Positions 1,261 to 38,333 of a stretch of 42,121 nt of DNA are shown here, in pieces. The stretch's first letter is position 1. Every line of letters starts with the position of its first letter. The position numbers and the translations under genes are program-made. Source of the stretch: Eubacteriales bacterium. GTDB lineage: Bacteria > Bacillota > Clostridia > Lachnospirales > Lachnospiraceae. The notes under the pieces were generated by a model. It was not told the DNA's origin, ran no database searches, and was given only the letters and a program-made list of their open reading frames with translations. The DNA is taken from positions 1-42,121 of the forward strand of contig JAUNPJ010000027.1 in NCBI GenBank assembly GCA_030536755.1, given 5' to 3'.

Positions 1261-1279
1261 AAACCGTCCCCTTGTCCCC
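1261..1279. repeat. Half REP-like element abutting a gene end
   Basis: AAACCGTCCCCTTGTCCCC on the plus strand lies two bases from the stop codon at 1282-1284. Its reverse complement has the same architecture (GGGGACA, GGGGAC, GGTTT) as one arm of the palindromic repeats found elsewhere here. No second arm is present, so this is a related but distinct half element. Confidence 0.5.
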
Positions 1280-1281
1280 AC

Positions 1282-3009
1282 TTATATTCCAAAGTAGCTT
1301 TTCATTTCTGCCTGAAACGAGGAATGTCTTGGGAATTTTTTCTTATACTCCTGGAAAGTTTTCTGCTTTGCCTCAGAAACGCCCATACTTTCTTCTATTT
1401 CTGCTGCCATAGCCAGTAATCCTGCCACTTCTCCATAGTGTCTTCTATGCTGTCCGGATACAATGGCATCTGCTCTGCTGTACACTATTTTTTTTGCCCA
1501 GGCAAAATATATCTTTTTTTCCTGCTCTGACATCGGGAAATACTGTTTCCATCTCTGAAAATAGTTCCAGAATGTACTGGTTTTCAGCCTGCTACTTTCT
1601 TCCATGATATCACTTTCAAAACTCATCTGCTGATTCAAATCCTTTTCGTCCGGAAAGCCCACATAAGCCGCAATGTTTGCCGCCGCTTTGGAAGGAAGTG
1701 GATTTTCATATAAATACAATAAGAACAAACGTATTCCGATGGGGATAAAGCTTCCGCTCCATCCAAGCGACCCCTGCGGATTTTTGGATGCCTCTTTTGC
1801 TTTTTCAAAGTCCCCTGTATAAAAACGAAGTGTATCATACCGGTAGCCACTTATGATATTTCTCCGTAGTTCTTTATTGCCTGCAAATCCAAAGGAATCG
1901 CCTCTTTCTGTGGAACGCAGGACTTCCTCTCCTCGCATCCCATACTTTTCTGCCATCTCTTTTGTTCCAAACAGCCTCAGAAAATTTCTGTCAGTCGAAT
2001 CTGACCGAAAAGCTTCCCAGCAAAACTGCATTTCCTTCTCCGTGTGCATCAGACAGGAAGAAGCGTATGATGCCATCAATGCTATTTTACTTCTGATTTT
2101 CAATCTGTAATCAATTTTGCCAAGAGCCTTTTCTCCAATTGTTTCCATTTGCAGATAATCGTGCTCTTTCTTATATTCCTGCATTGCTGACAAATATAAG
2201 GATGGGTGGACTTTACATTGTTGATCTGCCATTTTTACCAGGCCCTCAACCCCCTCATGGTATAAAACAGCTTCCTGCAAAAGCCGGCTCTCCGTATCTC
2301 CGCTTTTTGTCTGCAGCAGTGCAATCCAGTCGTTCCAAAATTGCTCTGTCCCGTCCAATTCTTCACGTCCTACGCCAAACATATCCTGAATGTGCAGCTT
2401 CTGGAAAGTATCAGAATAAAAATATAAATAAATATCCTCCGCACGATTTTGGGGTTCCTGCACCTGATAATCCGCATACAACGTCAGCAAGGCCATCTGC
2501 TGAAGATCTGTATGAATGATTTTATGTTCCGACAATGTTTCCAGATCCACAGGATCGCATTCATCCTCATACTCGGAATATGTAATTACACACATTTGCC
2601 ACAGCCACTCATAAATTAAATTCGCTTCCTGATATTTCCTGTCATGCACACAATCCTGTGCAAACTGAATCATGGCTCCAATCTTATCACCGATTCCCTG
2701 ATTATCATAGTATTTCGTAACCCAGTCTCTGTCCCAGTAAGAATCCGAATACTCTTCGTATTCCTCCACATCCAGATATAATTCTCCCTCATCAATCTGA
2801 TTCATCCATGTTTCCAGAAGTTCCATTTTCTCATCCACAAATTCCTGTGACATTCTTTCCGGCAATTGTATTTTTTCTTCTGCTTTACCCAGACAGGCAT
2901 CTATCAGCAATTCTAATTTTTCGCATTGTTCCTTCGAAAGCGATGTCGTCATTTTTAATACAATCTCCTGCAACTGTTTTTTATTGAGCTGTTTTATTTT
3001 CTGCTTCAT
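1282..3009 (-). CDS. Hypothetical protein, probable alpha-helical repeat (575 aa)
   Basis: I do not recognise this gene with confidence. The protein has a charged helical start (residues 1-50), an acidic Tyr/Asp/Glu stretch near residues 85-105 (VEEYEEYSDSYWDRDWVTKYY), and then predicted helix pairs to the end, as in TPR-like solenoids. The C-terminus (HRRHYGEVAGLLAMAAEIEE, then KKKFPRHSSFQAEM) resembles the C-terminal helical part of bacterial SWIM zinc-finger-associated proteins, but no CxC...CxH finger is present. There is no signal peptide or membrane segment. The ATG at 3009 lies 11 bases after GAGGGG; a TTG at 3015 with a 5-base spacer is an alternative start. It is expressed alone, and neighbours give no functional hint. 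Confidence 0.75.
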   Translation of the reverse strand: MKQKIKQLNKKQLQEIVLKMTTSLSKEQCEKLELLIDACLGKAEEKIQLPERMSQEFVDEKMELLETWMNQIDEGELYLDVEEYEEYSDSYWDRDWVTKYYDNQGIGDKIGAMIQFAQDCVHDRKYQEANLIYEWLWQMCVITYSEYEDECDPVDLETLSEHKIIHTDLQQMALLTLYADYQVQEPQNRAEDIYLYFYSDTFQKLHIQDMFGVGREELDGTEQFWNDWIALLQTKSGDTESRLLQEAVLYHEGVEGLVKMADQQCKVHPSLYLSAMQEYKKEHDYLQMETIGEKALGKIDYRLKIRSKIALMASYASSCLMHTEKEMQFCWEAFRSDSTDRNFLRLFGTKEMAEKYGMRGEEVLRSTERGDSFGFAGNKELRRNIISGYRYDTLRFYTGDFEKAKEASKNPQGSLGWSGSFIPIGIRLFLLYLYENPLPSKAAANIAAYVGFPDEKDLNQQMSFESDIMEESSRLKTSTFWNYFQRWKQYFPMSEQEKKIYFAWAKKIVYSRADAIVSGQHRRHYGEVAGLLAMAAEIEESMGVSEAKQKTFQEYKKKFPRHSSFQAEMKSYFGI

Positions 3010-3098
3010 ATCCAACGCATCCCCTCTATCATTTTTTCTTCCGTATTTTTATACTACCACAAAACCTTATTTTCTTGAACTGTTATAGGTATTTTTCT

Positions 3099-4832
3099 TC
3101 ACTCTGGCAGACTCTCCTTCACGCACAGCACACCATACCCCAACATTTCATTCGGCCACCGCGCATACCCCGGCAATTGTCTTGCACCTCTTCTCAGATA
3201 TGCCTTCACTTTCTCCCCAAATAAAAACGGATCATTTCCACGCACAATTCCCCACTCCATCAAAAGCGCCGCAGCCCCGGTGACAAACGGAGTCGCAAAG
3301 GAAGTTCCTGTAACCGATGTATAACCGCCGCCGGCCCGCGCAGTCGTGATATCAACCCCTGGAGCCGCCAGGTCCGGTTTTACCTGATTCGTCACGCGTG
3401 TAAAGCCTCTGCCCGAAAAATCAGCATATGTCTGATTTTTGGAGTCATATGCGCCCACTGTAATCACTTTGGCTGCTGTTCCGGGAACAGTGAGCGTCGT
3501 CTCCGGATTTGGATTCAGAAATTTTGTTCCCGTGTTCAGTACCCCGCCTCCGGGCAGCCACATATCAAATCTCCCATCCACAATCTGCCGCGGCACAAGC
3601 GTAAACGTCCAGATTCCGCTGTTTACATATTGATTCATAGGCAGAAAATCAATATAAATTTCCTGAGACGTACTGTATGGCCCCGGCTTTCCGTAATAGA
3701 TCAAAAGCTGTGTTCTTCCCATATAAAAACGCTGAGGTCCTAACCGCTCATTGAGCGGTCCCACCCGTTCCCCAGCCGGATTCGTAATAAAAATATCAAA
3801 CAGGTCGACATACGATTTCCAAAGCTGCACATTCAGGGAGGATTCATATTCACTGACCGAAAGCTCTGCCTTCGATTCCATTCCTATCCGAAGCTGCCCC
3901 AGCACATGCAGCGCATCCCGGCCATTATTTCCCGAACCAACACAGATTACGGTTCTTCCCAGGGAAGACACCGAATCCAGATAGGTTGTCACAAGGGAAT
4001 CTCCCTCATGTGAGCCATAATTATTTCCAAAACTCACATTGATCGCAATTGGCCGGTTATAGGCAATCCCCTGCCGGATCAGATAATCCACTCCCTGCAT
4101 CAGCTCGGTCGTGCGGGGGAAGGACTCTTCTCTCGGATTTCCAAGCTTCACCACCAGAATATCGCTTTGCGGCGCCATCCCGATGTAAGTACCATTGGAC
4201 GCATTTCCGTTTCCCGCCGCAATGCCAAGCACCTGTGTTCCATGTCCACTCAAATCTCTGGAGGGTACAATTTCATAAGCCTGACTGCGGCTTCCAGCCC
4301 GCAGCGCTTCGTTAATCTGCTCACTTGTGTATTCACTGCCCAACACATACCCTTCCGGCGGATTGCCTGGCACAGACTGATCCCAGATTTTGAGGATTCT
4401 TGTCTCTCCACGCTCATCGATAAAGTCAGGGTGCTGGTAATCCACACCAGAATCCACCACTCCGATCAGGACATCTTTTCCAAAAAGCTGGTACGGCACT
4501 TCCCGAAGGGGCAAAACACAAGAAGCTGCCTTTCCCTGGTCAACAGAGAAAAACAGCCTCTTTGGTTTTTCAATATATTCAATTCTCGGAAGTTGAGACA
4601 AAAGTTCCAATTGTTCTCTGGCAATCGTGACAATGGCATATTCATTCAGAAGCGGAACCACCTGCGCTCCCAATGCTTCCACCTGCTCCAGATTTCCGGA
4701 ATATTTCACCACCACATCCCAAAGCCTGCTTGCAGCATCGTATCCCACATCCAGTTCCATGGATTTTTCGCGCTCCTGCGGCGTCGCCTCCAGTGATAAG
4801 TTCAAGAGATTTTCGAGTTTTTGATTCGGCAT
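3099..4832 (-). CDS. S8 family serine peptidase (Csp-like subtilase)
   Basis: This 577-residue subtilisin-family protease carries the full catalytic triad: Asp127 in GVVDSGVDYQHPDF, His197 in DLSGHGTQVLG and Ser511 in GTSFATPFVTG. Residues 1-115 form a prodomain-like region, and an inserted beta-rich segment lies around residues 330-450, the arrangement of clostridial CspA/B/C-type proteases (about 550-600 aa). No Sec signal peptide is visible, as in that family. The correct start is the ATG at 4830-4832, with GGGAGG 7 bases upstream. The frame stays open further upstream only because a REP-like palindrome happens to lack stops, and that extension should not be annotated. The Csp germination role is known only for Clostridium; here the substrate is not determined. 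Confidence 0.92.
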   Translation of the reverse strand: MPNQKLENLLNLSLEATPQEREKSMELDVGYDAASRLWDVVVKYSGNLEQVEALGAQVVPLLNEYAIVTIAREQLELLSQLPRIEYIEKPKRLFFSVDQGKAASCVLPLREVPYQLFGKDVLIGVVDSGVDYQHPDFIDERGETRILKIWDQSVPGNPPEGYVLGSEYTSEQINEALRAGSRSQAYEIVPSRDLSGHGTQVLGIAAGNGNASNGTYIGMAPQSDILVVKLGNPREESFPRTTELMQGVDYLIRQGIAYNRPIAINVSFGNNYGSHEGDSLVTTYLDSVSSLGRTVICVGSGNNGRDALHVLGQLRIGMESKAELSVSEYESSLNVQLWKSYVDLFDIFITNPAGERVGPLNERLGPQRFYMGRTQLLIYYGKPGPYSTSQEIYIDFLPMNQYVNSGIWTFTLVPRQIVDGRFDMWLPGGGVLNTGTKFLNPNPETTLTVPGTAAKVITVGAYDSKNQTYADFSGRGFTRVTNQVKPDLAAPGVDITTARAGGGYTSVTGTSFATPFVTGAAALLMEWGIVRGNDPFLFGEKVKAYLRRGARQLPGYARWPNEMLGYGVLCVKESLPE

Positions 4833-4911: not shown

Positions 4912-5020
4912 GGAGGGACAGGGGACAGGTTTGTGTCCGGAAATAAATCCGGGGAGGGACAGGGGACAGGTTTGTGTCCGGAAATAAATCCGGACACAAA
5001 CCTGTCCCCTGTCCCTCCCT
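4912..5020. repeat. REP-like palindrome A with tandemly duplicated left arm
   Basis: The arm starting GGGACAGGGGACAGGTTTGT occurs at 4915 and again 41 bases later at 4956. The second copy is completed by a perfect inverted arm, giving 26-27 bp arms around an AT loop (4956-5015). Thus there are two left arms for one right arm. The loop (AAATAAAT) differs from the loop of the other three copies. The element lies in the leader of the protease gene, about 80 bases upstream of its start. Confidence 0.9.
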
Positions 5021-7749: not shown

Positions 7750-8916
7750 ATGGATTTTAATCAGATGAGTTTAAAAATGCACGAGGAAAACAAAGGAAAA
7801 GTAGCAATTCGTTCAAAAGTGACGGTGAAAACACGCGATGATTTAAGCACGGCTTATACACCGGGAGTCGCAGAGCCATGCCGAAAGATTGCAAAAGATA
7901 AAATGGAAGCTTACCGCTATACAGCAAAAGGAAATCTCGTAGCTGTTGTGTCCGATGGAACCGCAGTTCTTGGTCTTGGAGATATCGGTCCGGAAGCGGC
8001 AATGCCTGTTATGGAAGGAAAAGCAATCCTGTTTAAGGAATTTGGTGATGTAGACGCATTTCCAATCTGTCTTGACACAAAAAATCCGGATGAAATTGTG
8101 GAAACGGTCATTCGTCTTGCTCCTACTTTTGGCGGTATCAATCTGGAGGATATCTCCGCACCGAGATGTTTTGAAATTGAAGCAAGACTGAAAGAAGCTC
8201 TGGATATCCCGGTATTCCATGATGACCAGCATGGTACAGCAGTGGTCGTACTGGCAGCGATCATAAACGGTCTGAAGCTCACAGGAAAATCTGCCGAAGA
8301 CTGCAAAGTGGTTATCAACGGTTCCGGTGCCGCAGGAATTGCGATCGGCAAACTGCTGTTGAATTATGGATTCCGTCATATGACTCTCTGCGACAGAAAA
8401 GGTATGATCAACAAAGCGAACGCCAACAATCCTGTAAAAAAAGAAATGGCAGAGCTGACAAACCTTGAACAGAAAGAAGGAACACTGGCAGATGCTCTGA
8501 AGGGAGCAGATATCTTTATCGGTGTTTCCGCACCAAACAGTGTTACCCCTGAAATGGTAAAAAGCATGAACGACAATCCGATGATCTTCGCAATGGCAAA
8601 TCCGACTCCGGAAATCATGCCAGATCTTGCAAAAGAAGCAGGCGCAAAAATCATTGGTACCGGACGCTCTGACTTCCCGAATCAGATCAATAATGTTTTA
8701 GTATTTCCGGGACTTTTCCGCGGTGCTTTAGACGTACGTGCAAAAGCAATCACAGAAGAAATGAAGATGGCAGCTGCCAAAGCACTCGCGGGGCTGATTG
8801 ACGAAAAAGATTTATGCCCGGAATATATTATCCCGGATGCTTTTGATTCGCGTGTCGCAAAAGTAGTCGCAAAAGCGGTAGCTGAGGAAGCAATTCGCAG
8901 TAATATTACAAAATAG
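7750..8916 (+). CDS. Malic enzyme (oxidative decarboxylation of L-malate to pyruvate)
   Basis: This 388-residue short-form bacterial malic enzyme has the N-terminal malic domain with TAYTPGVAEPC, the metal/substrate segments LEDISAPRCFEIE and FHDDQHGTAVV, and a Rossmann NAD-binding domain with VVINGSGAAGIAIG, followed by IFAMANPTPEIMPD and the GRSDFPNQINNVL motif. It converts malate to pyruvate and CO2 with NAD(P)H formation in the cytoplasm. The start at 7750 has GGGAGG 9 bases upstream; an upstream in-frame ATG at 7696 has none and overlaps the promoter. It is followed 13 bases later by its transporter. MaeE of Lactobacillus casei has the same neighbourhood. Confidence 0.95.
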   Translation: MDFNQMSLKMHEENKGKVAIRSKVTVKTRDDLSTAYTPGVAEPCRKIAKDKMEAYRYTAKGNLVAVVSDGTAVLGLGDIGPEAAMPVMEGKAILFKEFGDVDAFPICLDTKNPDEIVETVIRLAPTFGGINLEDISAPRCFEIEARLKEALDIPVFHDDQHGTAVVVLAAIINGLKLTGKSAEDCKVVINGSGAAGIAIGKLLLNYGFRHMTLCDRKGMINKANANNPVKKEMAELTNLEQKEGTLADALKGADIFIGVSAPNSVTPEMVKSMNDNPMIFAMANPTPEIMPDLAKEAGAKIIGTGRSDFPNQINNVLVFPGLFRGALDVRAKAITEEMKMAAAKALAGLIDEKDLCPEYIIPDAFDSRVAKVVAKAVAEEAIRSNITK

Positions 8917-8929
8917 GAGGATAGGAATC

Positions 8930-10261
8930 ATGCAGGCGACAAAAAGTATGTCCATAGAAAAATCCCAGAATTCTATGGGAATCCTGGAAAAATTAAATGC
9001 TATTCAAATATATGGAATTGGATTGCCCTTATATCTTATTATTTTTGCTCTTATTTTTGCAGCAATGATGTTAGGATGGCTTCCAGGCGGAATGATTGGC
9101 GCATTTCTAATCATGATGGTTTTTGGAGGACTTTTCAATATTATCGGCAACAATTTTCCAATTGTAAAAACATATTTAGGCGGAGGAGCAATTGTTTGTA
9201 TTTTTGCATCTGCAGGTCTTGTTTTTGCGGGATTGATTCCGGAAGCTGTGATTGAAAATGTAGATACTTTCATGAATACCACCGGTTTTTTGAATTTCTA
9301 CATAGCAGCTTTGATCACAGGATCTATTCTCGGTATGAGCCGAAGTCTTCTTCTGCGCGCTGCCATCCGCTTCCTTCCAGTGGCACTTTGCGCTATGACT
9401 ATGGCAATCCTGGCTGTAGGAGTCGTTGGTATGCTGATGGGCTATGGATTTATGGATGCAATCATGTATGTGGCAATCCCAATGATGGGCGGTGGAATGG
9501 GCGCAGGTGTTGTGCCGCTATCCGGAATGTATGCAGAAGCTCTGCATGTGGATGCCGCCGGTATTATTTCAAGAATGATTCCGGCATCCACTCTTGGAAA
9601 CGTCACAGCGATTGTCGCAGCCGGTATGCTGGCAAAGCTTGGTGAAGTGAAACCATCTCTCAGCGGAAACGGAAAATTAATGAAAAAAGAAACAGAAGAT
9701 ATGTCTGACAGTAAAAAGCCGGCAGAAAGTATTCATCTCATGGGGATGGGGCTTGTCACCGCAATGACCTTTTATCTGCTTGGAATGTATATCAACAAAG
9801 CAGTTCCGTCCGTACACACTTATGCATGGATGATCATTTTAGTTGCAGTTTCTAAAGCACTCGGAATTGTTCCGAAAAAAATGGAGTATGCAGCACAGCA
9901 GTGGAGCCAGTTTGTGATGGGCAACTGGACACAGGCATTACTGGTCGGAATCGGAATTTCCATGATTGACCTGAATGCCGTGATCAGTGCCTTCTCCGTC
10001 ACATATCTGATTCTCGTTCTGGTTGTTGTCGGCGGTGTCGCATTAGGCGCAGGAATCGGTGGATATTTCGTTGGATTTTATCCCATTGAATCTTCTATTA
10101 CAGCCGGATTATGCACAACGAACATGGGCGGAACAGGTGACATTGCAGTTCTTTCTGCTGCAAAACGTATGGAACTTCTTCCCTTTGCCCAGATTTCAAC
10201 CCGAATCTGCGGAGCATTGGTCTTAGTTGTTGCCAGCATTCTTATCAAAATTTTGTTTTAG
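8930..10261 (+). CDS. 2-hydroxycarboxylate transporter family symporter (malate/citrate)
   Basis: This 443-residue polytopic membrane protein of the 2HCT family (CitS, CitP, MaeN, MaeP) shows the two family re-entrant-loop regions: GGGMGAGVVPLSGMY near residue 185 and the C-terminal GTGDIAVLSAAKRMELLPFA, which bears the conserved substrate-binding Arg region RICGAL. About 11 membrane segments are evident from hydrophobic runs. AGGAGG precedes the ATG by about 8 bases. It is co-transcribed with malic enzyme, so L-malate uptake is the likely role; citrate or lactate exchange cannot be excluded. Its stop codon (10259-10261) overlaps the flank of palindrome B, which probably ends the transcript. 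Confidence 0.94.
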   Translation: MQATKSMSIEKSQNSMGILEKLNAIQIYGIGLPLYLIIFALIFAAMMLGWLPGGMIGAFLIMMVFGGLFNIIGNNFPIVKTYLGGGAIVCIFASAGLVFAGLIPEAVIENVDTFMNTTGFLNFYIAALITGSILGMSRSLLLRAAIRFLPVALCAMTMAILAVGVVGMLMGYGFMDAIMYVAIPMMGGGMGAGVVPLSGMYAEALHVDAAGIISRMIPASTLGNVTAIVAAGMLAKLGEVKPSLSGNGKLMKKETEDMSDSKKPAESIHLMGMGLVTAMTFYLLGMYINKAVPSVHTYAWMIILVAVSKALGIVPKKMEYAAQQWSQFVMGNWTQALLVGIGISMIDLNAVISAFSVTYLILVLVVVGGVALGAGIGGYFVGFYPIESSITAGLCTTNMGGTGDIAVLSAAKRMELLPFAQISTRICGALVLVVASILIKILF

Positions 10262-10265
10262 GGGA

Positions 10266-10332
10266 GGGACAGGGGACAGGTTTGTGTCCGGAATTACTTC
10301 CGTAATTCCGGACACAAACCTGTCCCCTGTCC
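10266..10332. repeat. REP-like palindrome B, possible bidirectional terminator
   Basis: Two perfect 31-bp arms (10267-10297 and 10302-10332) enclose the loop TTCC. The element begins 4 bases after the stop of the malate carrier gene and ends 14 bases before the stop of the convergent HAD gene. The stem is very stable and GC-rich at its base, but it lacks a following T-run, so terminator function is inferred from position. Confidence 0.9.
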
Positions 10333-10346
10333 TGTCAAAATCTGCT

Positions 10347-11057
10347 TTATATGTTTTTGCGGATATAGTCCAAAAGTTGATCAAAACTGCCCCGTCTGTA
10401 TTGATTGATGTCTTTTCTACCTTTGTTAATCAGGCAGTCTGTCAGAAGAAATACCCTCATGCCTATCGTTTCAGATATCATATCCTCCGTCACATCATTC
10501 CCCACCATCAGACATTGTTCCGGCACGACCCCCAGCCGTCTTGCAATCTCCCGGTAATAGTCTGGGCTAGGCTTACAGTATCCGATATTCTCGTAAGTCG
10601 TATACAGTGCAAAATCCTCCGGTTCAAGACCCGACCAACGGATACGGCTCTGTGTGGCAACTGTGGGGAAAATGGGATTTGTCGCCAAAGCTACCTGCAA
10701 TCCCATTTCCTTTACTGTGTGAACAGCGATTGCTGCCTTAGGATTCATTCCGCAAAGACCTTTCGCTGCGCAAAAATCGTTCTCGTAGAATTCATCGAAC
10801 AGCGGTTTATCCGCAAGCACCTTTTCTCCATAGATACTTGCAAACTTTTTCCAAAAGACTTCTTCGTTGCTCTGACTGCCGTCATTTTTTACCATAGCAG
10901 CAGTTCCTGCCCAGATGGCATCCACAAGCTGCCCGGGTTCATACCCGTGAGGAGCCAGCTTAGCGGCAAGGATTTTAAAATAGCCCTTTGTAAAGGCATC
11001 GTTGTCCATTGGAAGCAGTGTGCCATCCAGATCAAATAGTACTGTGGTAAGTTTCAT
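10347..11057 (-). CDS. HAD family hydrolase (phosphatase)
   Basis: This 236-residue haloacid-dehalogenase-like protein has motif I FDLDGTLL (nucleophile Asp9, acid Asp11), a helical C1 cap (about residues 15-95), motif II near ATNPIFP, motif III Lys in CKPSPDYY and motif IV MVGNDVTEDM. The family hydrolyses small phosphate esters; the substrate is unknown. The ATG at 11057 has AAGGAG about 9 bases upstream; the upstream ATG at 11075 overlaps that site. It follows two DegV genes on the same strand by 50 bases and may be the last gene of their operon. Confidence 0.9.
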   Translation of the reverse strand: MKLTTVLFDLDGTLLPMDNDAFTKGYFKILAAKLAPHGYEPGQLVDAIWAGTAAMVKNDGSQSNEEVFWKKFASIYGEKVLADKPLFDEFYENDFCAAKGLCGMNPKAAIAVHTVKEMGLQVALATNPIFPTVATQSRIRWSGLEPEDFALYTTYENIGYCKPSPDYYREIARRLGVVPEQCLMVGNDVTEDMISETIGMRVFLLTDCLINKGRKDINQYRRGSFDQLLDYIRKNI

Positions 11058-11107
11058 CTTTTCATTCTCCTTCATATAGTTTTTTTCGTCATTGATTCGC
11101 CTTTCTT

Positions 11108-24625: not shown

Positions 24626-25768
24626 CTAATTACCATTCAACAGTCCAATTCCGTAACTTTTCACCTGACCTTTCAGGGCATCTCCTATCCACTGCATCAC
24701 CGTTTTTTCTTCTGTGACATATTCATATACATCTTTCTCGCCTATGATACAATGGACCGTCAGCCTCTTGTCTTTCTGCCGTTTATCAACTTTATCAAAA
24801 AAGAACATCCCTATACCAGGAACCTTTTCCTGCAGTTCTCTGCAAAGCTCCGACAACTCCTTCTGAAATTTATGACCCGATTCTTCTGAAAAAGCAAATT
24901 CATTGTTTTCCAAATAGTTTTCCATGCGTGCCAAAAATCCATCACGGACTGAACAGCAGAATAAATACTTTATTTTACTGCCGTGCGTTTTATACAGAGC
25001 TTCCAGACCGTCCAGCATGATATTATCACTGTGTATACAATCCACAATCTCCTTTGGCGCATGCCAGACATCCCTTGCTGCTGAATGCCAATCCTCCATG
25101 CGGAAATATCCGCTGTCCACCAGACAGGTCACATCTCTGCATTCCGGGAATTGGTGAATCAGATCATTGGATACCAAAGACACCCCGAAAGCCCCACCGC
25201 TACATCCACAGATAAAAAGCTGTTCCGGTGCCGATATCCATTTCTTTACTGACTGGAGAATCGCCCTATAGTTACGGAATCCGTGATGGTGGAGCACCCT
25301 TCTGCTCCCATCCAGCGCCGTATATGGAAAATCTCCATCCCCCACATGAAAATCCCCTGTATTATAATTCAGGACAAGTTTTGACCAGTTACAGAAAGGA
25401 TTGCGGTCGCTGTCCTCAAAAATCCCCTTATTCAAGTTTAGATCTGTAAATAGGTCTACATGTACCATATAAAATCCCTCTGCCAGGTTTTTGCTGTAAA
25501 GAGAAGACTGTCTGGCTGCAGTATATTCATTCCATGACACTCCTCCCCCGGCAAAATACACCAGAAGTTTATTCTCCGTGCCTATCTGAAAACTACCGTA
25601 AGTTGATTCGCCGTTAGCATCCACGACTCCTTCCGGATAGACACGGTACCATTTACCCTTCTGAGGATCTTCGGGTATTCCTGGAAACCGTTTCTTTTTT
25701 AAAAATGGTGTCAGTAATTTCAACCATAACGGCTCTCTTTCCCATTCTTCCAATTTGAAATCTGCCAT
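24626..25768 (-). CDS. Pectin acetylesterase / Notum-like esterase (CE13-type), cytoplasmic
   Basis: This 380-residue protein carries the pectinacetylesterase family landmarks: LLVYFAGGGVSWNEYTA (oxyanion loop), NWSKLVLNYNTGDFHVGD, nucleophile Ser in FICGCSGGAFGVSLV and VDSGYFRMEDW. The family removes acetyl groups from polysaccharides and is normally secreted, but here the N-terminus (MADFKLEEWEREPLWLKLL) has no signal peptide, so it should act on imported oligosides. AAGGGGG precedes the ATG. It is the first intact gene after the duplicated, broken MBL block, which carries a copied promoter region that may drive this operon. About 130 bases at its 5' end are repeated at 28542-28674. Confidence 0.85.
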   Translation of the reverse strand: MADFKLEEWEREPLWLKLLTPFLKKKRFPGIPEDPQKGKWYRVYPEGVVDANGESTYGSFQIGTENKLLVYFAGGGVSWNEYTAARQSSLYSKNLAEGFYMVHVDLFTDLNLNKGIFEDSDRNPFCNWSKLVLNYNTGDFHVGDGDFPYTALDGSRRVLHHHGFRNYRAILQSVKKWISAPEQLFICGCSGGAFGVSLVSNDLIHQFPECRDVTCLVDSGYFRMEDWHSAARDVWHAPKEIVDCIHSDNIMLDGLEALYKTHGSKIKYLFCCSVRDGFLARMENYLENNEFAFSEESGHKFQKELSELCRELQEKVPGIGMFFFDKVDKRQKDKRLTVHCIIGEKDVYEYVTEEKTVMQWIGDALKGQVKSYGIGLLNGN

Positions 25769-25784
25769 CTTCTGCCCCCTTCTC

Positions 25785-25942
25785 TCAATCCAGTTTATCT
25801 GCCGACACTACAATTCCTGCCGCTTTCTTTTTCGGTTTTCCCGGCTGGATGCAGCAGTGCAGTTCTTTTCCCGGTGTCAATTCATGTTCTTTCCGTGGTA
25901 TTCCTTTTTCATAGTCCAAATGTTCAACCACTTCAATATAAT
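25785..25942 (-). pseudogene. 3' fragment of an MBL-fold hydrolase gene (duplicate)
   Basis: The minus strand encodes the last roughly 50 residues of the intact MBL hydrolase, nearly unchanged (EVVEHLDYEKGIPRKEHEL, then CCIQPGKPKKKAAG and VVSADKLD). The frame then runs straight into sequence that lies upstream of the intact gene (matching from 29639 on). The 5' 80% of the gene and its start are gone. The two copies differ at only about ten positions over roughly 310 bases counted by eye, so the duplication is recent. Confidence 0.85.
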
Positions 25943-26062
25943 ATTCATTCTATAATTTAAGGCTTCACTTTTTCTATCTTATTCTTATACATATTATCTT
26001 AATATTGCTCTTCTCTTTTTCATTTTGTATAATGATGCTAAGATATAAATTTTAAAGTGCGA
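25943..26062. promoter_or_regulatory. Duplicated MBL/araC intergenic region with orphan promoter
   Basis: These 120 bases match 29641-29761 nearly base for base. The plus-strand promoter TTGCTC (26005-26010), 17-base spacer, TATAAT (26028-26033) is retained but no longer has the araC gene behind it and points into the 3' end of GH3b. On the minus strand the copied region lies in front of the pectin-acetylesterase operon and may supply its promoter and AraC sites. Confidence 0.75.
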
Positions 26063-28541: not shown

Positions 28542-28674
28542 GATAGACACGGTACCATTTACCCTTTTTAGGATTTTCGGGTATTCCTGGAAACCGTTTC
28601 TTTTTTAAAAATGGTGTCAGTAATTTCAGCCATAACGGCTCTCTTTCCTATTCTTCCAATTTGAAATCTGCCAT
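28542..28674 (-). pseudogene. 5' fragment of the pectin-acetylesterase-like gene (duplicate)
   Basis: From the ATG at 28674 the minus strand repeats the first roughly 44 codons of the intact esterase gene, but codon 9 (TGG, Trp) is TAG and the copy ends abruptly 24 bases before the GH3b start. It lies directly downstream of the intact MBL gene, so the ancestral order was MBL then esterase, later split by the arrival of GH3b. Confidence 0.85.
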
Positions 28675-28691
28675 CTTCTGCCCCCCTTCTC

Positions 28692-29543
28692 TCAATCCAG
28701 TTTATCTGCCGACACCACAATTCCTGCCGCTTTCTTTTTCGGTTTTCCCGGCTGGATGCAGCGACGCAGTTCTTTTCCCGGTGTCAATTCATGTTCTTTC
28801 CGTGGTATTCCTTTTTCATAGTCCAAATGTTCAACCACTTCAATATAATCATCCAGCATATATTTGGGGAACAACTTTGACTGATGTCCTGTGACAAAAT
28901 AATCAAAATCAAGTTCCTTCGCTCTGTACAGAGTCTTTTGATAAACAGAAACTTTCGTAGACTCTGGCAGAAACATATATACATCGGAGTTGATAGCATC
29001 GGAAGTAATAAGCAGCTTCAATTCCCTGCAGTACAGTCCGATGCTGCCCGGAGTATGTCCAGGCAGTTCAATGACCTCCGCTGTCTTCCCTCCAAGGTCA
29101 AAGGTATACCCTTCCGTGACTTCCAAAAAATCATTAAAATCATCCTGTAAGATGTCTTCTTTTTTCACTCTCCTGGGAAGGATGGGGAGAAAGAACAAGA
29201 GCTTCTGTACTTTTTTCAAAGAATCATACATGATACCCCGGTACTCCGCTGAATTGTGCCGCCTGAACACCGGAATATCCGCCGGATGAATAAAAACAGG
29301 CTGATGAAATGCTGAATTACCACAAGCATGGTCAAAGTGTCCATGCGAATTAACAATAAAGAGCGGTAGTTTTGTAATCTCTCGAATAACTTCTGGTAGT
29401 TTTGTAAAGCCATATCCTGTATCAACCAACAGCGCATGATGACTTCCTACCAAAAGATGCATCTGCACAAAGCAACTTGAAATTTCAAAGAAACCGGGCA
29501 TAGGCTCCTCTATCTTAAAATATTTTCTTTCGCTTTTATCCAT
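28692..29543 (-). CDS. MBL-fold metallo-hydrolase
   Basis: This 283-residue metallo-beta-lactamase-fold protein has the metal-binding motif NSHGHFDHACGN (HxHxDH), a further metal His in LPGHTPGSIGLY, Asp in ITSDAIN and a late His in VTGHQSKLF. It hydrolyses an unknown ester, lactone or thioester; the family includes lactonases and glyoxalase-II-like enzymes. GGAG lies 7 bases before the ATG. It is divergent from the AraC-type regulator gene and upstream of GH3b, so it probably belongs to the glycoside operon, where a lactone or aglycone-ester substrate is conceivable but unproven. Confidence 0.9.
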   Translation of the reverse strand: MDKSERKYFKIEEPMPGFFEISSCFVQMHLLVGSHHALLVDTGYGFTKLPEVIREITKLPLFIVNSHGHFDHACGNSAFHQPVFIHPADIPVFRRHNSAEYRGIMYDSLKKVQKLLFFLPILPRRVKKEDILQDDFNDFLEVTEGYTFDLGGKTAEVIELPGHTPGSIGLYCRELKLLITSDAINSDVYMFLPESTKVSVYQKTLYRAKELDFDYFVTGHQSKLFPKYMLDDYIEVVEHLDYEKGIPRKEHELTPGKELRRCIQPGKPKKKAAGIVVSADKLD

Positions 29544-29623: not shown

Positions 29624-29702
29624 TTACCTTTGTTCTATGTATTCATTCTATAATTTAAGGCTTCGCTTTTTCTATCTTATTCTTATACATATTATCTTAA
29701 TA

Positions 29703-29731
29703 TTGCTCTTCTCTTTTTCTTTTTGTATAAT
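29703..29731 (+). promoter_or_regulatory. Promoter of the AraC-family gene
   Basis: TTGCTC (29703-29708), a 17-base T-rich spacer and a perfect TATAAT (29726-29731), about 50 bases before the GTG start at 29782. An almost identical copy at 26005-26033 no longer has a gene behind it. Confidence 0.65.
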
Positions 29732-29781
29732 GATGCTAAGATATATAAATTTAAAGTGCGATTGAGAAGGAGGGAATAACT

Positions 29782-30525
29782 GTGATAATCACGGAAAAAC
29801 AGATAAATACCTTTGTAGATTTAATCAGATTCCAACATATGGAAAACCAATTCCAGCGAATTCCTGTTGAAGTCGAGGCGAATCTTCTAAATAAAATACG
29901 GCTGGGAGACTATGAGAATATCCACATCTCCCCATTTAACAAAATGAATGATAACTTAGGTTCCATGGCTTTGGATAAAATGACAGCTTACACGTATCTT
30001 ACAGTAGCGTCTATTACCCTGTTCTCCCGAACATCCATCGAATGCGGAGTTTTACCTGACGAGGCTTTTGATCTGTCTGATGCTCTGCTCTATACCCTTT
30101 CCAGATGTAATAGTGTGGACGAAATCCATAATATCTTCCAGTTATCCGCCACCATGTTTGCCAAACAAGTAGCCCACCTGCATATTACGCCCTGCTCCCA
30201 TCAGGTGGAGCGGATATGCAATTATATCGGACGCAATATCTTTCAGAAGATTACTCTGAAAGATATCGCTGATTATACAGAATTGACTGACACCTATTTA
30301 TGCCGTATTTTTGCGAAAGAAATGGGGATATCTATCCACCGTTATATTCAACGTGAAAAAATAACCGTTGCCTGCAACCTTCTGGAGCACACAGACCGCC
30401 CTATATCAGAAATTTCAGTTTATCTGGGCTTTAATAGCCAGAGCAATTTTGCGGCTATTTTCAAAAAATGGCGGAATATGACACCTACTCAATATCGAGC
30501 AATAAATTATCGGGAAGTGTACTGA
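29782..30525 (+). CDS. AraC family transcriptional regulator
   Basis: This 247-residue regulator has the usual C-terminal double helix-turn-helix (about 145-240: YIGRNIFQKITLKDIADYTE, then YLCRIFAKEMGISIHRYIQR and ISEISVYLGFNSQSNFAAIF). The N-terminal 140 residues are helical and lack a recognisable cupin sensor, as in one group of Firmicute AraC proteins. It starts at GTG with GGAGGG 8 bases upstream; the start codon lies inside the palindrome GTGATAATCAC. It is divergent from the MBL/glycosidase genes, which makes it the probable activator of the 13.7-29.5 kb glycoside operon. The inducer is unknown. Confidence 0.9.
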   Translation: MIITEKQINTFVDLIRFQHMENQFQRIPVEVEANLLNKIRLGDYENIHISPFNKMNDNLGSMALDKMTAYTYLTVASITLFSRTSIECGVLPDEAFDLSDALLYTLSRCNSVDEIHNIFQLSATMFAKQVAHLHITPCSHQVERICNYIGRNIFQKITLKDIADYTELTDTYLCRIFAKEMGISIHRYIQREKITVACNLLEHTDRPISEISVYLGFNSQSNFAAIFKKWRNMTPTQYRAINYREVY

Positions 30526-30559
30526 CACACCTCCCGATATTTGGAATTACTGAAGGGGA

Positions 30560-30628
30560 GGGACAGGGGACAGGTTTGTGTCCGGAATTACTTCCGTAAT
30601 TCCGGACACAAACCTGTCCCCTGTCCTT
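30560..30628. repeat. REP-like palindrome C, possible bidirectional terminator
   Basis: The arms 30561-30591 and 30596-30626 (31 bp each, loop TTCC) are identical to palindrome B. The element lies between the convergent araC gene (stop 30525) and the GH2 gene (stop 30638), 11 bases from the latter. The conserved position at gene ends supports a termination or mRNA-end role. Confidence 0.9.
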
Positions 30629-30637
30629 TCCTCCTTC

Positions 30638-33025
30638 TTAATATGCCATCAGCTCCACCGTCTGTGTCTCCACGCCTTCTGCTGATGCAGTAACTTTGAT
30701 TGTGCCTTTTTCTCCATTACTCTGTACAATTGCCAACAATCTCCCATGATATGACGTATAACTACTGTCTGAAAATTTCTCCGTTGTCTCCGGATTTCCA
30801 CTTGCCAATGCGCGTAAAGTAGCTGCGCCATCCACAGTAACCATCAGTTTCCGATCCTTCAGCATTTTTACGATGCCTTGATCATCTGTAATCTGAATAT
30901 GAATGTATGCTATATCTTCTCCATCAGCTTTTAAAGAAGTATCTTCCGGGAGAATCGTCAGTTTCTCAGACTCGCCTGCAGTTATAAGACTTTCCCTTCC
31001 CAGTTCATTTCCGTTTGCATCATAGCTGATCGCTTCCAGCTTTCCCGGTCTGTACTCTGCCTGATAAAATGCACGACATTCCTTCAACGATTTTCTGCCA
31101 AGCGAAATACCATCCTGAAGCAGCTCTACCTCTGCTCCAATACTATATACTTCAATATCAGCAATTCTTCCTTCCTGCCCTGGCCAACTCCAGCTGTTTA
31201 CTGCATCCGTCAGTCTCCATTTTCCAACCGTATACGCTTCCCCCGCATGGTCTACCGGGCGCACCCCGATGTACGGCTTTTTGTAAGTTCCAAATACAAT
31301 AGAGGTATAATACCCCTGACTTTCTACATAACCGGTCAGATCCACAGAACCGCAGCCTGCTGTTAGGCATGGATAATCTTTGGAAAATGGAGCCTGTGCG
31401 GATCCATAGAACGGAAGACCTACCCCGGCCTCTCCCAAATAATCCCACGCTGTCCACATAAAATCACCAACCAGATAAGGACTCTCTTTCACCCGTTTCC
31501 AGTTGCTTCCGATTTTGCATGGAAAAGTTTCTGAGCTAAGCATTACTCTGCCTGGAACCATCTCATGTGTTTTTTCATACCACAGCTCTCCGTAGTTATA
31601 TCCCACAATATCCACATGACGGAATACATCCTTTAAAAGTTCTTCCTGATTTTCTGCCGTGATGGATGCCATGATCTTAGGAAGCAGTGTCAATACGTTA
31701 TTTACATCCTGACTGCCAACCGTCTTTTCTTCAGCTTCCTTTTTTTCTTCCTCACTCATGGCCGTCTCTGCCGCTTTCTGTTCCGCCATCTTTTTAGCCA
31801 TAACTGACAACAATACATTGTTCGCAATCGTCGTTGGCCTTGTCGCATCCAATGACTTAAAGGTTCCTGCGATTGCCTGGCATATAATTGCTCCATGTGG
31901 AAGCCCGGTATCGGTAATCTCATTTCCAACGCAATACATAATTACGGACGGATGACTATAGTCTTTCTTTACCAACGCCTCTACATCTTTTTTCCATTCT
32001 GCATCAAAATATTTTGCATAATCATAAGTTGTCTGAGGCAATTTCCACTGATCAAAGGTTTCATCCAGTACATACATTCCTACTTCATCACAAATATCCA
32101 GGAATAATTTCCCCGCAGGATTGTGGGAATAACGAATTGCATTATATCCAAGTTCTTTCAGTTTCTTTACACGACGATACTCCGCTTTATAGACAGAGCA
32201 AGCTCCCAACGGTCCATTATCATGATGAATACAACCACCCTTCAGTTTTACAGTATTGCCGTTTACCTGAAATCCTTTTTCTGCATCCCACGCAAGACTT
32301 CGGATACCAAAACGGATTTCCGACTCATCAATAACTGCATCCTGTTTCATCAATCTGGCTTTTAAAATGTAAAGATTTGGCTCTTTTGCATCCCAGAGTT
32401 TTGCCTCCGTAATCTCCGTCTGAAAATCTGCACCACATCCCTCTGCTATCTTTTTACCATCCAGGAACACTTCACAGACAATCTCTGTACCTTCATCTGC
32501 AGTGGTCTCTGTCTCAACACGAATCACTGCAGGATCTACTGATAATGTGGTGACACGTATACCATCAGGCACGATGTGCTCTCTGTTTCCTACATAAAGA
32601 TTTACATCCCTGTAAATACCGCTCCCCGAATACCAACGGGAATTCGGCGTCATGGAATTGTCAACAATCACACGCAGTTCATTTTCTTCACCGATACGAA
32701 GATGCTCTGTCAGATCCACATAAAAGTTCGTATAACCGTATACCCAGCCACCGATTACTTTCTCATTCAACAGTACCGTTGAATTCATGTAGACACCTTC
32801 AAACTCTGCAATAATTATCTTGCCTTTATACGCCTCTTCTCCGTAAATAGACTTTACGTAGTTGTACTTTCCGCCCGGATAGAATCCTGAGGCATTGCCG
32901 TTTTCCAGATCAGGAACCCGTTCTTCTTCAATCATGGCATCATGAGGCAGATTAATCCGTCTCTTTTCATTTTCATAACCATCTTTCCAGAAGTACCAGT
33001 TCTGATTCAGTTTCTGTTTTTTCAT
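30638..33025 (-). CDS. GH2 family glycoside hydrolase (beta-galactosidase-like)
   Basis: This 795-residue GH2 enzyme has an N-terminal jelly roll (about 1-155, with SGFYPGGKYNYVKSIY and WYSGSGIYRDVNLYV), an Ig-like domain (about 160-255), the TIM barrel (about 260-570) with RYSHNPAGKLFLDICDEVG, acid/base Glu about 366 in YCVGNEITD, nucleophile Glu about 497 in LSSETFP, and C-terminal beta domains. There is no signal peptide. GH2 covers beta-galactosidase, beta-glucuronidase, beta-mannosidase and others, and the exact specificity cannot be read here. AAGGAG precedes the ATG. It has its own upstream region with paired direct repeats, and lies downstream of the second sugar-kinase operon. Confidence 0.9.
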   Translation of the reverse strand: MKKQKLNQNWYFWKDGYENEKRRINLPHDAMIEEERVPDLENGNASGFYPGGKYNYVKSIYGEEAYKGKIIIAEFEGVYMNSTVLLNEKVIGGWVYGYTNFYVDLTEHLRIGEENELRVIVDNSMTPNSRWYSGSGIYRDVNLYVGNREHIVPDGIRVTTLSVDPAVIRVETETTADEGTEIVCEVFLDGKKIAEGCGADFQTEITEAKLWDAKEPNLYILKARLMKQDAVIDESEIRFGIRSLAWDAEKGFQVNGNTVKLKGGCIHHDNGPLGACSVYKAEYRRVKKLKELGYNAIRYSHNPAGKLFLDICDEVGMYVLDETFDQWKLPQTTYDYAKYFDAEWKKDVEALVKKDYSHPSVIMYCVGNEITDTGLPHGAIICQAIAGTFKSLDATRPTTIANNVLLSVMAKKMAEQKAAETAMSEEEKKEAEEKTVGSQDVNNVLTLLPKIMASITAENQEELLKDVFRHVDIVGYNYGELWYEKTHEMVPGRVMLSSETFPCKIGSNWKRVKESPYLVGDFMWTAWDYLGEAGVGLPFYGSAQAPFSKDYPCLTAGCGSVDLTGYVESQGYYTSIVFGTYKKPYIGVRPVDHAGEAYTVGKWRLTDAVNSWSWPGQEGRIADIEVYSIGAEVELLQDGISLGRKSLKECRAFYQAEYRPGKLEAISYDANGNELGRESLITAGESEKLTILPEDTSLKADGEDIAYIHIQITDDQGIVKMLKDRKLMVTVDGAATLRALASGNPETTEKFSDSSYTSYHGRLLAIVQSNGEKGTIKVTASAEGVETQTVELMAY

Positions 33026-33328
33026 GGTCTTTCGCTCCTTTTCATTATTTTAAAACTATTGTATTTCATACTTTTTAGCAGAACAATGACAGGAACCGCT
33101 TTCCGGCAGTTATTTTGTAACATATTACGACTTTATCCTTTTCCACAAACTCTATATGTAACAAAAGAATAACATATTACGACTATTTTTATTTTCTTTG
33201 TATCATATACCGTCTTACAAGTTTATCTCTTCTTCATTCTGTGCTAGAATAAAACAAAAAAGTACGAAATAAATCAACCTGTGAATTCATTGACCTCCTG
33301 TACATGGCTTTTCACACTCTCATCACTT
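33026..33328 (-). promoter_or_regulatory. GH2 upstream region with paired TAACATATTACGACT repeats
   Basis: This 303-base gap has no gene. The 15-base sequence TAACATATTACGACT occurs at 33118-33132 and again at 33170-33184, 52 bases apart and in the same orientation. Each core (GTAACATATTAC / ATAACATATTAC) is itself an imperfect palindrome. Two spaced same-direction sites upstream of a glycosidase gene fit AraC- or LacI-type control. No clear promoter hexamer pair could be assigned. The rest is AT-rich. Confidence 0.5.
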
Positions 33329-35852: not shown

Positions 35853-37256
35853 TTAATCAATGTCAACCCACTCGTATCCGAGATATGTCGTAAATGCCTC
35901 TTTTAAGATTTCTTTCATATGCCCTACACCTACGCAGGTGTGATGCTTAAAGCCGCCTTTAGCCAGTTTAATCATTTTATCCTGCATGTTATCGATGGCG
36001 CAAACTCCTGCGCATCCGAAATATGCCTCTTCGATTGGGTCATCGGTGAATTCTGCTTCGCTGGCATACATAACCACCTTCCCATCTACGGTTAAGCAGT
36101 TGGAAATAGTAGTTTTCATTGGGCGAATGCGTCCTTCATTGGTTCCCCATCCGGATCCCGGATCACCTTTTGCAAACATCTTATGCTCGGTAACCGTTCC
36201 TTTTTCCGTCATGAGACTCTGTGCAGTCGATCCACAGTGGAACAGGATTACCTTGTTCTCATCATCTCCGTAGTTATTGTTCCAGTCAAGGACAGCAGTA
36301 GGCTGCTCGCTGGCGAGTGCCATTGCCCTCATGGATATAGCAGAAGTCAGGTCAATTTCACATGAGGTCACGATACCGCGATCATTCAACTCAGAAAGGA
36401 GTACACATGGACATACACGAAGGATTGTTTCCATCTCATTCCAGCAGCGAATTGCCAAAGCATCCAGATGATACTCTTCCACATACTCGTCAATGACAAC
36501 AGAAATTTTAGCCAGAGTATTTTTGTTCTCCTCCGGAACCTTACTAAAATCACTATATTTCATAAGGCTTTCCTTCTTAGCAGCTACAGCAGCATCCTCA
36601 TCAGATTTTGCATTTACTTTAAATACAAGCTCTGAAAGATCAAAGGACTCTACGGTAATGCCGTTTTTCTGTAAACCAATCTCATCAAACCTGGTTGTCT
36701 TGAAAGCAGTGGTTCTTGCACCAATACAGCCGATGGTAAATCTCTTCATTCCGTTTACGACACGGCAGATTGCAGCAAAGTCTCTTAAATTCTCCTGAAA
36801 TTTATCAGAAAGTGGATGAACTACATGCGGTTTCAATACAGTGAATGGTACGTGATACTGGGTAAACACATCTGTAACTGAGAATTTTCCGCAGAATGCG
36901 TCTCTACGGTGTGCAAAATCCATCTTGCCAATCTCATCCGGATATGCCTGCATCAGAATTGGAACTCCTGCATCCTGAAGTGCTGTAATGGCACCATTTT
37001 CATCTGCAAAGATTGGCATGGAAAAAATAACGCCATCGTACTCTCCTTCATGTTCTTTTAACCATTTAGCATAGAGGCGTCCTTCATCCCTTGTCTCAAT
37101 CCCGCCAAATCTGGTCAGTTCCGCATCCATGGCAATGTAATCATACCCCGCATCTGTCACAGCCTTGATCATATCTTCTCTTGCTCCGTAAATCAGTTCT
37201 CCCGGCATAAATCCACGGTTACAAAATGCCAGTGCAAATGTCATCTTTTTACTCAT
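35853..37256 (-). CDS. L-fucose/D-arabinose isomerase-like sugar isomerase
   Basis: This 467-residue protein belongs to the FucI/AraA-like isomerase superfamily (COG2407 type, shorter than the roughly 590-aa classical FucI). Metal-site segments are visible: TSCEIDLTSAIS (Glu), VLDWNNNYGDDENKV (Asp) and KHHTCVGVGHM (His). RCWNEMETILRVCPCVLLSE is a family signature. It should convert an aldose to a ketose in the cytoplasm with a divalent metal. AGGAG lies 8 bases before the ATG. It sits between a class II aldolase and an FGGY kinase, which together form a complete aldose to triose-phosphate route. The sugar is not determined; deoxyhexose or pentose is likely. Confidence 0.88.
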   Translation of the reverse strand: MSKKMTFALAFCNRGFMPGELIYGAREDMIKAVTDAGYDYIAMDAELTRFGGIETRDEGRLYAKWLKEHEGEYDGVIFSMPIFADENGAITALQDAGVPILMQAYPDEIGKMDFAHRRDAFCGKFSVTDVFTQYHVPFTVLKPHVVHPLSDKFQENLRDFAAICRVVNGMKRFTIGCIGARTTAFKTTRFDEIGLQKNGITVESFDLSELVFKVNAKSDEDAAVAAKKESLMKYSDFSKVPEENKNTLAKISVVIDEYVEEYHLDALAIRCWNEMETILRVCPCVLLSELNDRGIVTSCEIDLTSAISMRAMALASEQPTAVLDWNNNYGDDENKVILFHCGSTAQSLMTEKGTVTEHKMFAKGDPGSGWGTNEGRIRPMKTTISNCLTVDGKVVMYASEAEFTDDPIEEAYFGCAGVCAIDNMQDKMIKLAKGGFKHHTCVGVGHMKEILKEAFTTYLGYEWVDID

Positions 37257-37276
37257 TTTCGCTTCTCCTTTTTTTC

Positions 37277-38143
37277 TTAATCTAATAGTGCAAACATTTT
37301 CATTGCTGCTTTTACATTTTCTTTCATTGCATCCCTTGCCGCCATGGACGCAGAAGAGAAAAACATTGGTTCTCCTTCTTTTACGCTGTTTACATATTCT
37401 GCCACCGCATTTCCGCCGGATTTATCCATATATGTAAAATAATTCACCTTTCTTACCCCCGCATGGATTGCTTTGAAATAATCTTCTTTGCTCACACCTG
37501 AGCCGCCATGCATGACAACCGGAATGTCGCCTGTAAGACTTCTCACATTCTTCACAACTTCAAAATCCAACTTCGGCTGTGTCAGGTATATTCCATGTGT
37601 TGTACCAAAAGAACAGGCAAGGGCATCAATTCCCGTCTCTTCTACAAATATTTTCGCCTGATGTGGGTCTGTATAGATCTTAGTATCATCGTTCTCACCA
37701 CTGTCATCCCCGGCACCGGACTCTCTTCTTCCCATAGAACCAAGCTCTGCTTCTACCGAAGCCCCTGTCTTTGCTGCCATGGCAACTGCTTTTTTTGTAT
37801 TCTCCAGGTTTTCTTCATAGGAAAGTGTTGAGCCATCATACATAATTGCTGTAAATCCTATATCGAGTGCCTGCTGCAAATATTCCAGGGTCTCACCATG
37901 ATCCAGATGGACGCATACCGGAACTTTAGATTTTTCCGCCGCATTTACCATAATTGGTCCAATCACAGCAAGTGGGATCCACGGTTCGTGACACTGTGCG
38001 AACTGAATGATAACCGGCAGATCCAGTTCTTCCGCCGCTTCAATCACTGCCTGAAGTGCCTCAAGATTTGGTGTATTAAAGGAGCCAACAGCTATCTTTT
38101 TTTCCTCGGCAATCTTCATTACGTCGTTTAATGTTGCTAACAT
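37277..38143 (-). CDS. Class II (zinc) ketose-phosphate aldolase
   Basis: This 288-residue FBA/KbaY/GatY-family aldolase has the catalytic Asp81 and zinc His82 in HLDHGE, zinc His183 in GTTHGIYL, His212 in MHGGSGV and Asn234 in KVNYFTYMD. In ordinary fructose- or tagatose-bisphosphate aldolases the last motif is N-(I/V)-(D/A/N)-T-(D/E). Here it is NYFTYM, so the acidic residue is lost, suggesting a different ketose phosphate. The start at 38143 has AAGGAGG 8 bases upstream; the frame upstream to 38215 has no site. It is the first gene of the aldolase-isomerase-kinase-epimerase unit and probably yields DHAP and an aldehyde. Confidence 0.88.
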   Translation of the reverse strand: MLATLNDVMKIAEEKKIAVGSFNTPNLEALQAVIEAAEELDLPVIIQFAQCHEPWIPLAVIGPIMVNAAEKSKVPVCVHLDHGETLEYLQQALDIGFTAIMYDGSTLSYEENLENTKKAVAMAAKTGASVEAELGSMGRRESGAGDDSGENDDTKIYTDPHQAKIFVEETGIDALACSFGTTHGIYLTQPKLDFEVVKNVRSLTGDIPVVMHGGSGVSKEDYFKAIHAGVRKVNYFTYMDKSGGNAVAEYVNSVKEGEPMFFSSASMAARDAMKENVKAAMKMFALLD

Positions 38144-38202
38144 ATTCGTTATCCTCCTTATCTTCTTTCTGTTATAAATACTATCCTTCTTTTTTCCTTT
38201 TT

Positions 38203-38232
38203 TATATAGAATCATGTTCTTTTTACTTTGAA
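38203..38232 (-). promoter_or_regulatory. Candidate promoter of the aldolase-isomerase-kinase unit
   Basis: On the minus strand, TTCAAA (38227-38232), an 18-base spacer and TATATA (38203-38208), downstream of palindrome D and about 60 bases before the ATG at 38143. If real, it makes the second sugar unit separable from rhaBAD. Confidence 0.4.
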
Positions 38233-38261
38233 TTTGTTCGCAGATATGTTAAAATTTATGG

Positions 38262-38333
38262 ATGGGACAGGGGACAGGTTTGTGTCCGGAATTACTTCCG
38301 TAATTCCGGACACAAACCTGTCCCCTGTCCCAT
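38262..38333. repeat. REP-like palindrome D after rhaD
   Basis: Two perfect 34-bp arms (38262-38295, 38300-38333) enclose the loop TTCC. The inner 31 bp of each arm are identical to palindromes B and C. It begins 5 bases after the rhaD stop codon (38339-38341, minus strand), exactly where a terminator would separate rhaBAD from the next unit. Confidence 0.9.

Follow-up and report, generated by a model that had tools for sequence, protein, structure and literature searches.

What are the long palindromes that stand close to gene ends in the Eubacteriales bacterium contig JAUNPJ010000027.1 (assembly GCA_030536755.1; positions 1 to 42,121 of the forward strand), and how did they come to be there? 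The whole of this 42,121-nucleotide stretch is referred to below as the window. An original prediction, made from the letters of the window, had described the palindromes as a family of elements like repetitive extragenic palindromic (REP) sequences with perfectly conserved arms, had taken this conservation as a sign of recent spread or selection, had assigned their movement to a REP-associated tyrosine transposase (RAYT) acting in trans, and had proposed that the complete genome be searched for the arm sequence and its distance to stop codons. REPINs, which are inverted doublets of REP units, are known best from Proteobacteria in which a RAYT is resident. Taken as a whole, the results described here are best explained by a lineage-restricted, REPIN-like family, and this reading is regarded as probable. 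The elements of the window are the following.

1260..1279, minus strand: half element or decayed REP unit, GGGGACAAGGGGACGGTTTC on the minus strand; the stop of gene 1282-3015 (minus strand) is 2 nt away
4915..5019, no strand assigned: copy A, a direct REP unit (4915-4951) and, after it, a hairpin with arms 4952-4982 and 4989-5019 and loop AATAAA
10267..10332, no strand assigned: copy B, a full hairpin with 31-bp arms and loop TTCC, flanked by convergent genes
30561..30626, no strand assigned: copy C, a full hairpin with 31-bp arms and loop TTCC, flanked by convergent genes
38262..38333, no strand assigned: copy D, a full hairpin with 34-bp arms and loop TTCC, 5 nt from a stop at 38339

The four hairpins and the half element were located where they had been predicted, and the whole set was recovered by a repeat finder. 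The 31-bp arms of the copy A hairpin are 100% paired. Copies B, C and D share arms that are identical over 31 bp around the common loop, as had been claimed; the arms of copy C extend imperfectly to 30556-30631 and those of copy D pair over the longer distance listed above. RNA folding of the full window copies gave energies of -64.6 to -85.8 kcal/mol (z -10.5 to -14.3; none of 200 shuffles was as good), and the fold of the half element was unremarkable against its shuffles (z -0.26).

The host genome (G000) is a draft of 3.84 Mb in 145 contigs and was compared with two congeners, G001, a metagenome-assembled genome (MAG), and G002. The genome-wide search for the 24-base arm with at most two mismatches yielded 37 matches in the host and none for the reversed control. 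A hairpin-core pattern (TGTCCGG, 0-24 bases, CCGGACA) identified 28 sites in the host, ten in G001 and one in G002 (controls, 0), and judged by their arms 27 of the 28, nine of the ten and none of the one were members of the family. The core sites C102:39809 (host; copies outside the window are given by contig and position) and C207:5606 (G001) were rejected because their arms are not of the family, and neither the single core match nor the single arm-like match of G002 is a clear member. Contig ends truncate four of the 27 host sites, of which two (the end of C129 and the start of C27) may be one copy; a few copies with mutated cores (C72:9563, C23:80189, G001 C59:1122 and G001 C169:5984) fall outside the count. 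The exact arm GGGACAGGGGACRGKTT was present in one of the 250 genomes of the bacterial-family set, the host itself (G001 is not in the set), and within genome_contigs MAG SUG1049 alone yielded the exact 18-base core GGGGACAGGTTTGTGTCC; this MAG is taken to be G001, and the host may be absent from that collection. Since a 14-mer search with one mismatch was near noise (52 matches versus 43 for the reversed control), single short matches were not counted as copies. A mobile vehicle was considered and rejected, since viral contigs lacked the exact core and neither plasmid nor phage records gave a hit to copy B at E 1e-3, as was a known RNA family, with no Rfam match at the gathering score in the window or in locus L106. 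No description of the family was found in the open-access literature searched.

Each typical copy is built of two inverted REP units around a spacer that forms the hairpin, and the copies are over-represented and extragenic. The commonest unit, GGGACAGGGGACAGGTTTGTGTCCGGA, is followed by a loop and then by the inverted unit; a second subfamily, taken to be older, carries GGGACAAGGGGACGGTTCTGTGTCCGG (e.g. C38, C13), and loops vary widely among copies. The claim that both arms are perfectly conserved held among the window copies and failed for the family as a whole, whose other members differ, often by the same change on both arms. Such paired variants within a copy include GGTTTG/CAAACC, GGTCTG/CAGACC, GGTATG/CATACC, GGTGTG/CACACC, AAGGGG/CCCCTT and GGGGG/CCCCC, and copy-specific outer bases are paired as well (AT/AT in D, AGA/TCT in C108). 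Arm symmetry was assessed with 32 intact hairpins (23 host, 9 G001) out of 38 rows, after four truncated at contig ends and two foreign to the family had been removed, the mutated-core copies being left outside. At 650 of 960 outward positions the two arms match, compared with 528 ± 15 when right arms were shuffled and 601 ± 9 when they were shuffled within subfamilies; none of 5000 shuffles reached the observed value in either case. In PMC8604942, template switching between arms is described as homogenizing inverted repeats and inverting spacers, and the private changes on two arms fit such arm-to-arm switching. A possible loop inversion is seen at one orthologous site, the C69/C104 junction, where the loop reads AATTTATT in the host and AATAAATT in G001 in the same orientation. 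Mismatch types (G.T versus A.C) were dropped as a test of RNA against DNA constraint, being uninformative: read from the opposite strand, each G.T becomes an A.C.

Copies on the same contig tend to share a loop: 7 of the 12 same-contig host pairs have the same loop class (orientation being ignored), against 1.08 expected, and 8 of 20000 shuffles reached 7. The sets concerned are B, C and D, three copies on C104 and two on C27, of which one C104 copy and one C27 copy are contig ends. This clustering fits local spread and, together with the restricted distribution of the family, supports the suggestion that the spread was recent.

With a crude open reading frame (ORF) call, a stop codon lay within 40 bp of, or overlapped, 24 of the 27 host copies and eight of the nine G001 copies. 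The host total was corrected to 25, since C104:6368, first misjudged because of a spurious antisense ORF, lies 31 nt past the stop of a 726-codon gene. Nine host copies stand between two stops, each at most 40 bp away, and copy B, missed at first owing to a spurious ORF, is the tenth; some copies fell inside crude ORFs, and those checked (A, B and C104:6368) proved to be spurious calls or extensions. Among gaps of 20-600 bp in nine host stretches, the motif was present in 7 of 12 convergent gaps versus 5 of 75 others (Fisher P 8e-5), and in seven G001 stretches the bias was not seen (2/11 versus 7/48, P 0.67); these rates are not genome-wide because the stretches were chosen for holding elements. 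The genes that adjoin copies B, C and D in the window are listed here.

8930..10261, plus strand: 2-hydroxycarboxylate transporter gene (Pfam 2HCT), neighbour of B
10347..11075, minus strand: HAD-like hydrolase gene, convergent neighbour of B
29782..30525, plus strand: AraC-type regulator gene, neighbour of C
30638..33025, minus strand: glycoside hydrolase family 2 gene, convergent neighbour of C
38339..39253, minus strand: class II aldolase/adducin-domain gene, neighbour of D

Copy B lies 4-5 nt past the stop ending at 10261 and 14 nt short of that at 10347, and copy C lies ∼35 nt past 30525 and 6-11 nt short of 30638. The distances in the ORF table thus agree with the prediction that four of the five elements are near stops, with B and C between convergent genes; copy A is the exception, the nearest stop being 225 nt off and a subtilase gene lying downstream. 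Elsewhere in the window, direct repeats of 115-168 nt with 95-98% identity (25636-26056, 28542-28849 and 29640-29754) suggest segmental duplication.

A link to RAYTs is provided by the motif GGGACRG. It was counted at the 20 best-scoring RAYT loci that the bacterial family offers, with 19 of them used (L040-L059; L049 was left out as no ORF was found, and some ORF bounds are crude). Their 250-bp flanks, 9227 bp in all, held 47 occurrences and the remaining 53336 bp held 26; dinucleotide-resampled flanks contained 1.6 on average and 7 at most. Within 250 bp, the motif flanked both sides of 12 of the 19 loci, one side of three and neither side of four. Locus L053 carries GGGGACGGTTCTTC on both sides, close to the GGGGACGGTTCTGTGTCC of a host subfamily, and two unit sequences may be listed, GGGGACGGTTCT (L053 flanks and host subfamily) and GGGGACAGGTTTG. 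The designation of the elements as REP-like is sustained by the 27 core sites, their position at gene ends, the inverted doublets with variable loops and this motif in common with RAYT-flanking repeats.

The same sites were compared in the host and G001. Behind the gene that precedes the host element at C104:6368, G001 has a stem CCCCGGCTG...CAGCCGGGG followed by TGTTTTTG; in place of the host element at C100:37896 it has AGGGGTGT...ACACCCCT and a long T-run past the stop. Both of these G001 hairpins appear terminator-like. At C104:18976, G001 carries another hairpin, GGGGACAAATG...CATTTGTCCCC. The host copy C23:80189, whose edge retains GGGGGACGGTTC, has the look of an element of the new type written over one of the other type, which is still found at G001 C169:5984. 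Related copies are present in both genomes at C93, C121 and C65, a rearrangement cuts one arm at G001 C152, and the half element of the window is conserved at the orthologous G001 site (97% identity over 250 bp). G001 has no copy A at the corresponding position, a place where synteny is broken too; for C72 there is no orthologue in G001 at the DNA level, and no clean empty site was found in the host-G001 site comparison.

Several further features were noted. In G001 C107 (L100), positions 8443-10591 form a collinear patchwork of eight pieces of the window (5232-34746) at 95-99% identity, which resembles many deletions; one junction fuses the left half of copy B to window position 33317, and the patchwork is either real decay or an assembly artefact. 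An insert of ∼165 bp with inverted ends CTAGTACATCGAATAATAA adjoins an element at G001 C89:5214-5384 (L102:1315-1485) and is absent from the host orthologue. At G001 C211:∼11600 (L137) a different hairpin, GAAGGGGACAAATG...CATTTGTCCCCTTC, possibly of a second REP class, stands where the host has an element. A ∼600-bp repeat at host C23:75215-75819 (L106:9216-9820) is bounded by imperfect terminal inverted repeats of ∼35 bp and contains an inner inverted repeat of 37 bp; the matches listed for it include many places in G001, and it has no Rfam match.

The only clear Y1 transposase gene of the host is an IS200/IS605 TnpA next to TnpB on C39, and no arm motif was seen at the ends of this insertion sequence (IS) in the 7 kb read around it. 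A curated RAYT model matched 99 of the 250 bacterial-family genomes at E <= 0.001, 12 of them above its cut-off, and gave no match in the host; IS200 genes, of which three reach 30-43 bits with this model, may account for many of the weak matches. The claim that a RAYT acts in trans is thus unsupported in the host, with an IS200/IS605 TnpA as the sole clear Y1 gene and, as given below, a negative RAYT profile in three congeneric genomes. Possible reasons are loss of the RAYT or its absence from the draft assembly, and the searches could have overlooked a RAYT located on a short contig with such a hairpin on either side.

The origin of the copies may then be pictured as follows. The hairpin would have been copied in trans by a RAYT-type Y1 (HUH) transposase, since lost or missing from the draft assembly, with part of its spread going to sites nearby. 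During replication the arms of each copy would be kept alike by template switching from one arm to the other. Copies would survive behind stop codons, at some sites in the place of an ordinary terminator, and one or both of the adjoining mRNAs may use them as 3'-end hairpins.

A number of results weigh against the REPIN-like reading. A RAYT profile built from 13 RAYTs of the same bacterial family, which recovered its controls (G207, outside the profile, 4.1e-102; G038, whose gene is in the profile, 4.0e-102, with a second G038 gene at 5.9e-76), returned only a 0.28 fragment in G000, an IS200 TnpA at 1.6e-5 in G001 and nothing in G002, and a cognate RAYT flanked by the repeat was not found in these three genomes. 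A GTAG or CGTC tag is absent from the window copies as read. There is no sign of target duplication among 27 copies (mean shared flank word 0.89 versus 0.95 when mispaired; 1346 of 2000 as high). The symmetry of the arms is partial: deviations from the consensus at the inner 16 positions comprise 60 symmetric, 40 one-sided and eight that differ on both sides, and arms are mismatched in C65, G001 C147 and C23:74231, the G001 counterpart of C65 being mismatched like it. The possible loop inversion at the C69/C104 junction rests on a contig end. A separate 14-pair stem (30508-30539) beside copy C overlaps the end of the AraC gene, which may for this reason keep its own terminator; the scan for terminator-like sites, used only for this stem, gave 23 in each of two 20-kb stretches versus 18.6 ± 6.1 and 14.2 ± 3.9 in shuffled sequence. 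Draft assemblies add their own limits: some contigs break off within a copy, and around 10-N gaps the bases of two copies are garbled. These ten-N scaffold gaps with garbled bases, at host C100:18516 and C104:28918, suggest that the hairpins disturb sequencing or assembly.

The garbled copies and the contigs that end inside copies are also what would be expected if the perfection of the arms were an assembly or library fold-back artefact. This is very improbable, given that every internal copy has one outer flank unlike the other and that two separate assemblies (G000 and G001) show the family with different, symmetric variants. Alternatively, the copies may be non-autonomous elements moved by another enzyme, either the resident IS200/IS605 TnpA or, as miniature inverted-repeat transposable elements (MITEs), a DDE transposase. 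The presence of TnpA with TnpB on C39 and of such an IS between two elements, within ∼2 kb, on G001 C169 speaks for this, whereas the ends of the C39 IS lack the arm motif in the 7 kb read and the flanks of the copies lack a target duplication signal; movement of this kind seems improbable.

That the elements are bidirectional terminators or 3'-end stabilizers selected by the host, kept for their function in RNA with spread as a secondary matter, is considered unlikely, even though their position behind stop codons, their excess in convergent host gaps and the terminator-like G001 hairpins at two orthologous sites would all be expected. The short copy C23:81662, the only one with T-runs on both sides, would also suit such a role. 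Against it, convergent bias is not seen in the seven G001 stretches, all stretches having been chosen for elements, and near-perfect 31-bp arms would exceed what an RNA hairpin needs. Terminators with a U-tract were predicted at 2 of 19 host gene ends with an element (both belonging to C23:81662) versus 3 of 63 others, and at 0 of 11 versus 2 of 50 in G001. The predictor is insensitive, scoring 2 of 300 random pieces and few ordinary ends, and these near-equal low rates make it say little. By this predictor, a GC-rich hairpin followed by a U-tract, the mark of an intrinsic terminator, does not characterize the family. According to PMC8049555, which cites other work for it, REP hairpins affect termination or mRNA half-life; such a role is plausible for the present elements and is left unproven because only one short copy has a predicted U-tract terminator. 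A bolder version of the REPIN-like reading, held as doubtful, is that the population outlived its transposase and that its short-range spread and the renewal of its palindromes need nothing but host replication (template switching, or conversion among neighbouring hairpins). Elements spread in this way would overwrite older hairpins and ordinary terminators at gene ends, so that genes would now depend on the elements for their 3' ends.

Where a gene end bears a copy in one genome and none in another, the states before and after insertion can be compared, and the arm symmetry and loop clustering make both transposase-free renewal or spread and the replacement of terminators testable.

Set beside known systems, the REPIN-like family recalls the REPINs of Pseudomonas fluorescens SBW25. 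PMC3116915 describes REPINs as doublets of inverted REP units whose ends are conserved and whose spacer is less so, with compensatory changes common; the present elements are likewise extragenic inverted doublets with a variable spacer, hairpin-capable and with compensatory changes, and singlets and clusters occur in both cases. Unlike the SBW25 REPINs, they are accompanied by no detected RAYT in the host and two congeners and by no GTAG tag in the window copies, they number tens rather than hundreds of copies, and their arms are often palindromic into copy-specific outer bases. CGTC repeats without a dedicated transposase are described in PMC3733652, and the present family resembles them as a set of small palindromic repeats with no transposase of its own; its tag is another one, and the main text of that paper mentions neither 'Firmicutes' nor 'Clostridi'. 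PMC8049555 reports that RAYTs are single-copy genes passed on vertically and that REPINs persist, in smaller number, in E. coli genomes lacking a RAYT. The persistence of a REPIN population without its RAYT is thus shared with those strains, whereas other E. coli strains carry the RAYT and here all three congeneric genomes are without a detected one. As no resident RAYT was detected and the window copies carry neither a GTAG nor a CGTC tag, the family is filed as a REPIN-like variant and not as a proven RAYT family. It has the GGGACRG unit and palindromic hairpins in common with the repeats that flank the RAYTs of L040-L059, down to the unit shared with the L053 flanks, and differs from them in the narrow occurrence of its exact core. 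The present family works like a REPIN and carries a motif common to RAYT-linked repeats.

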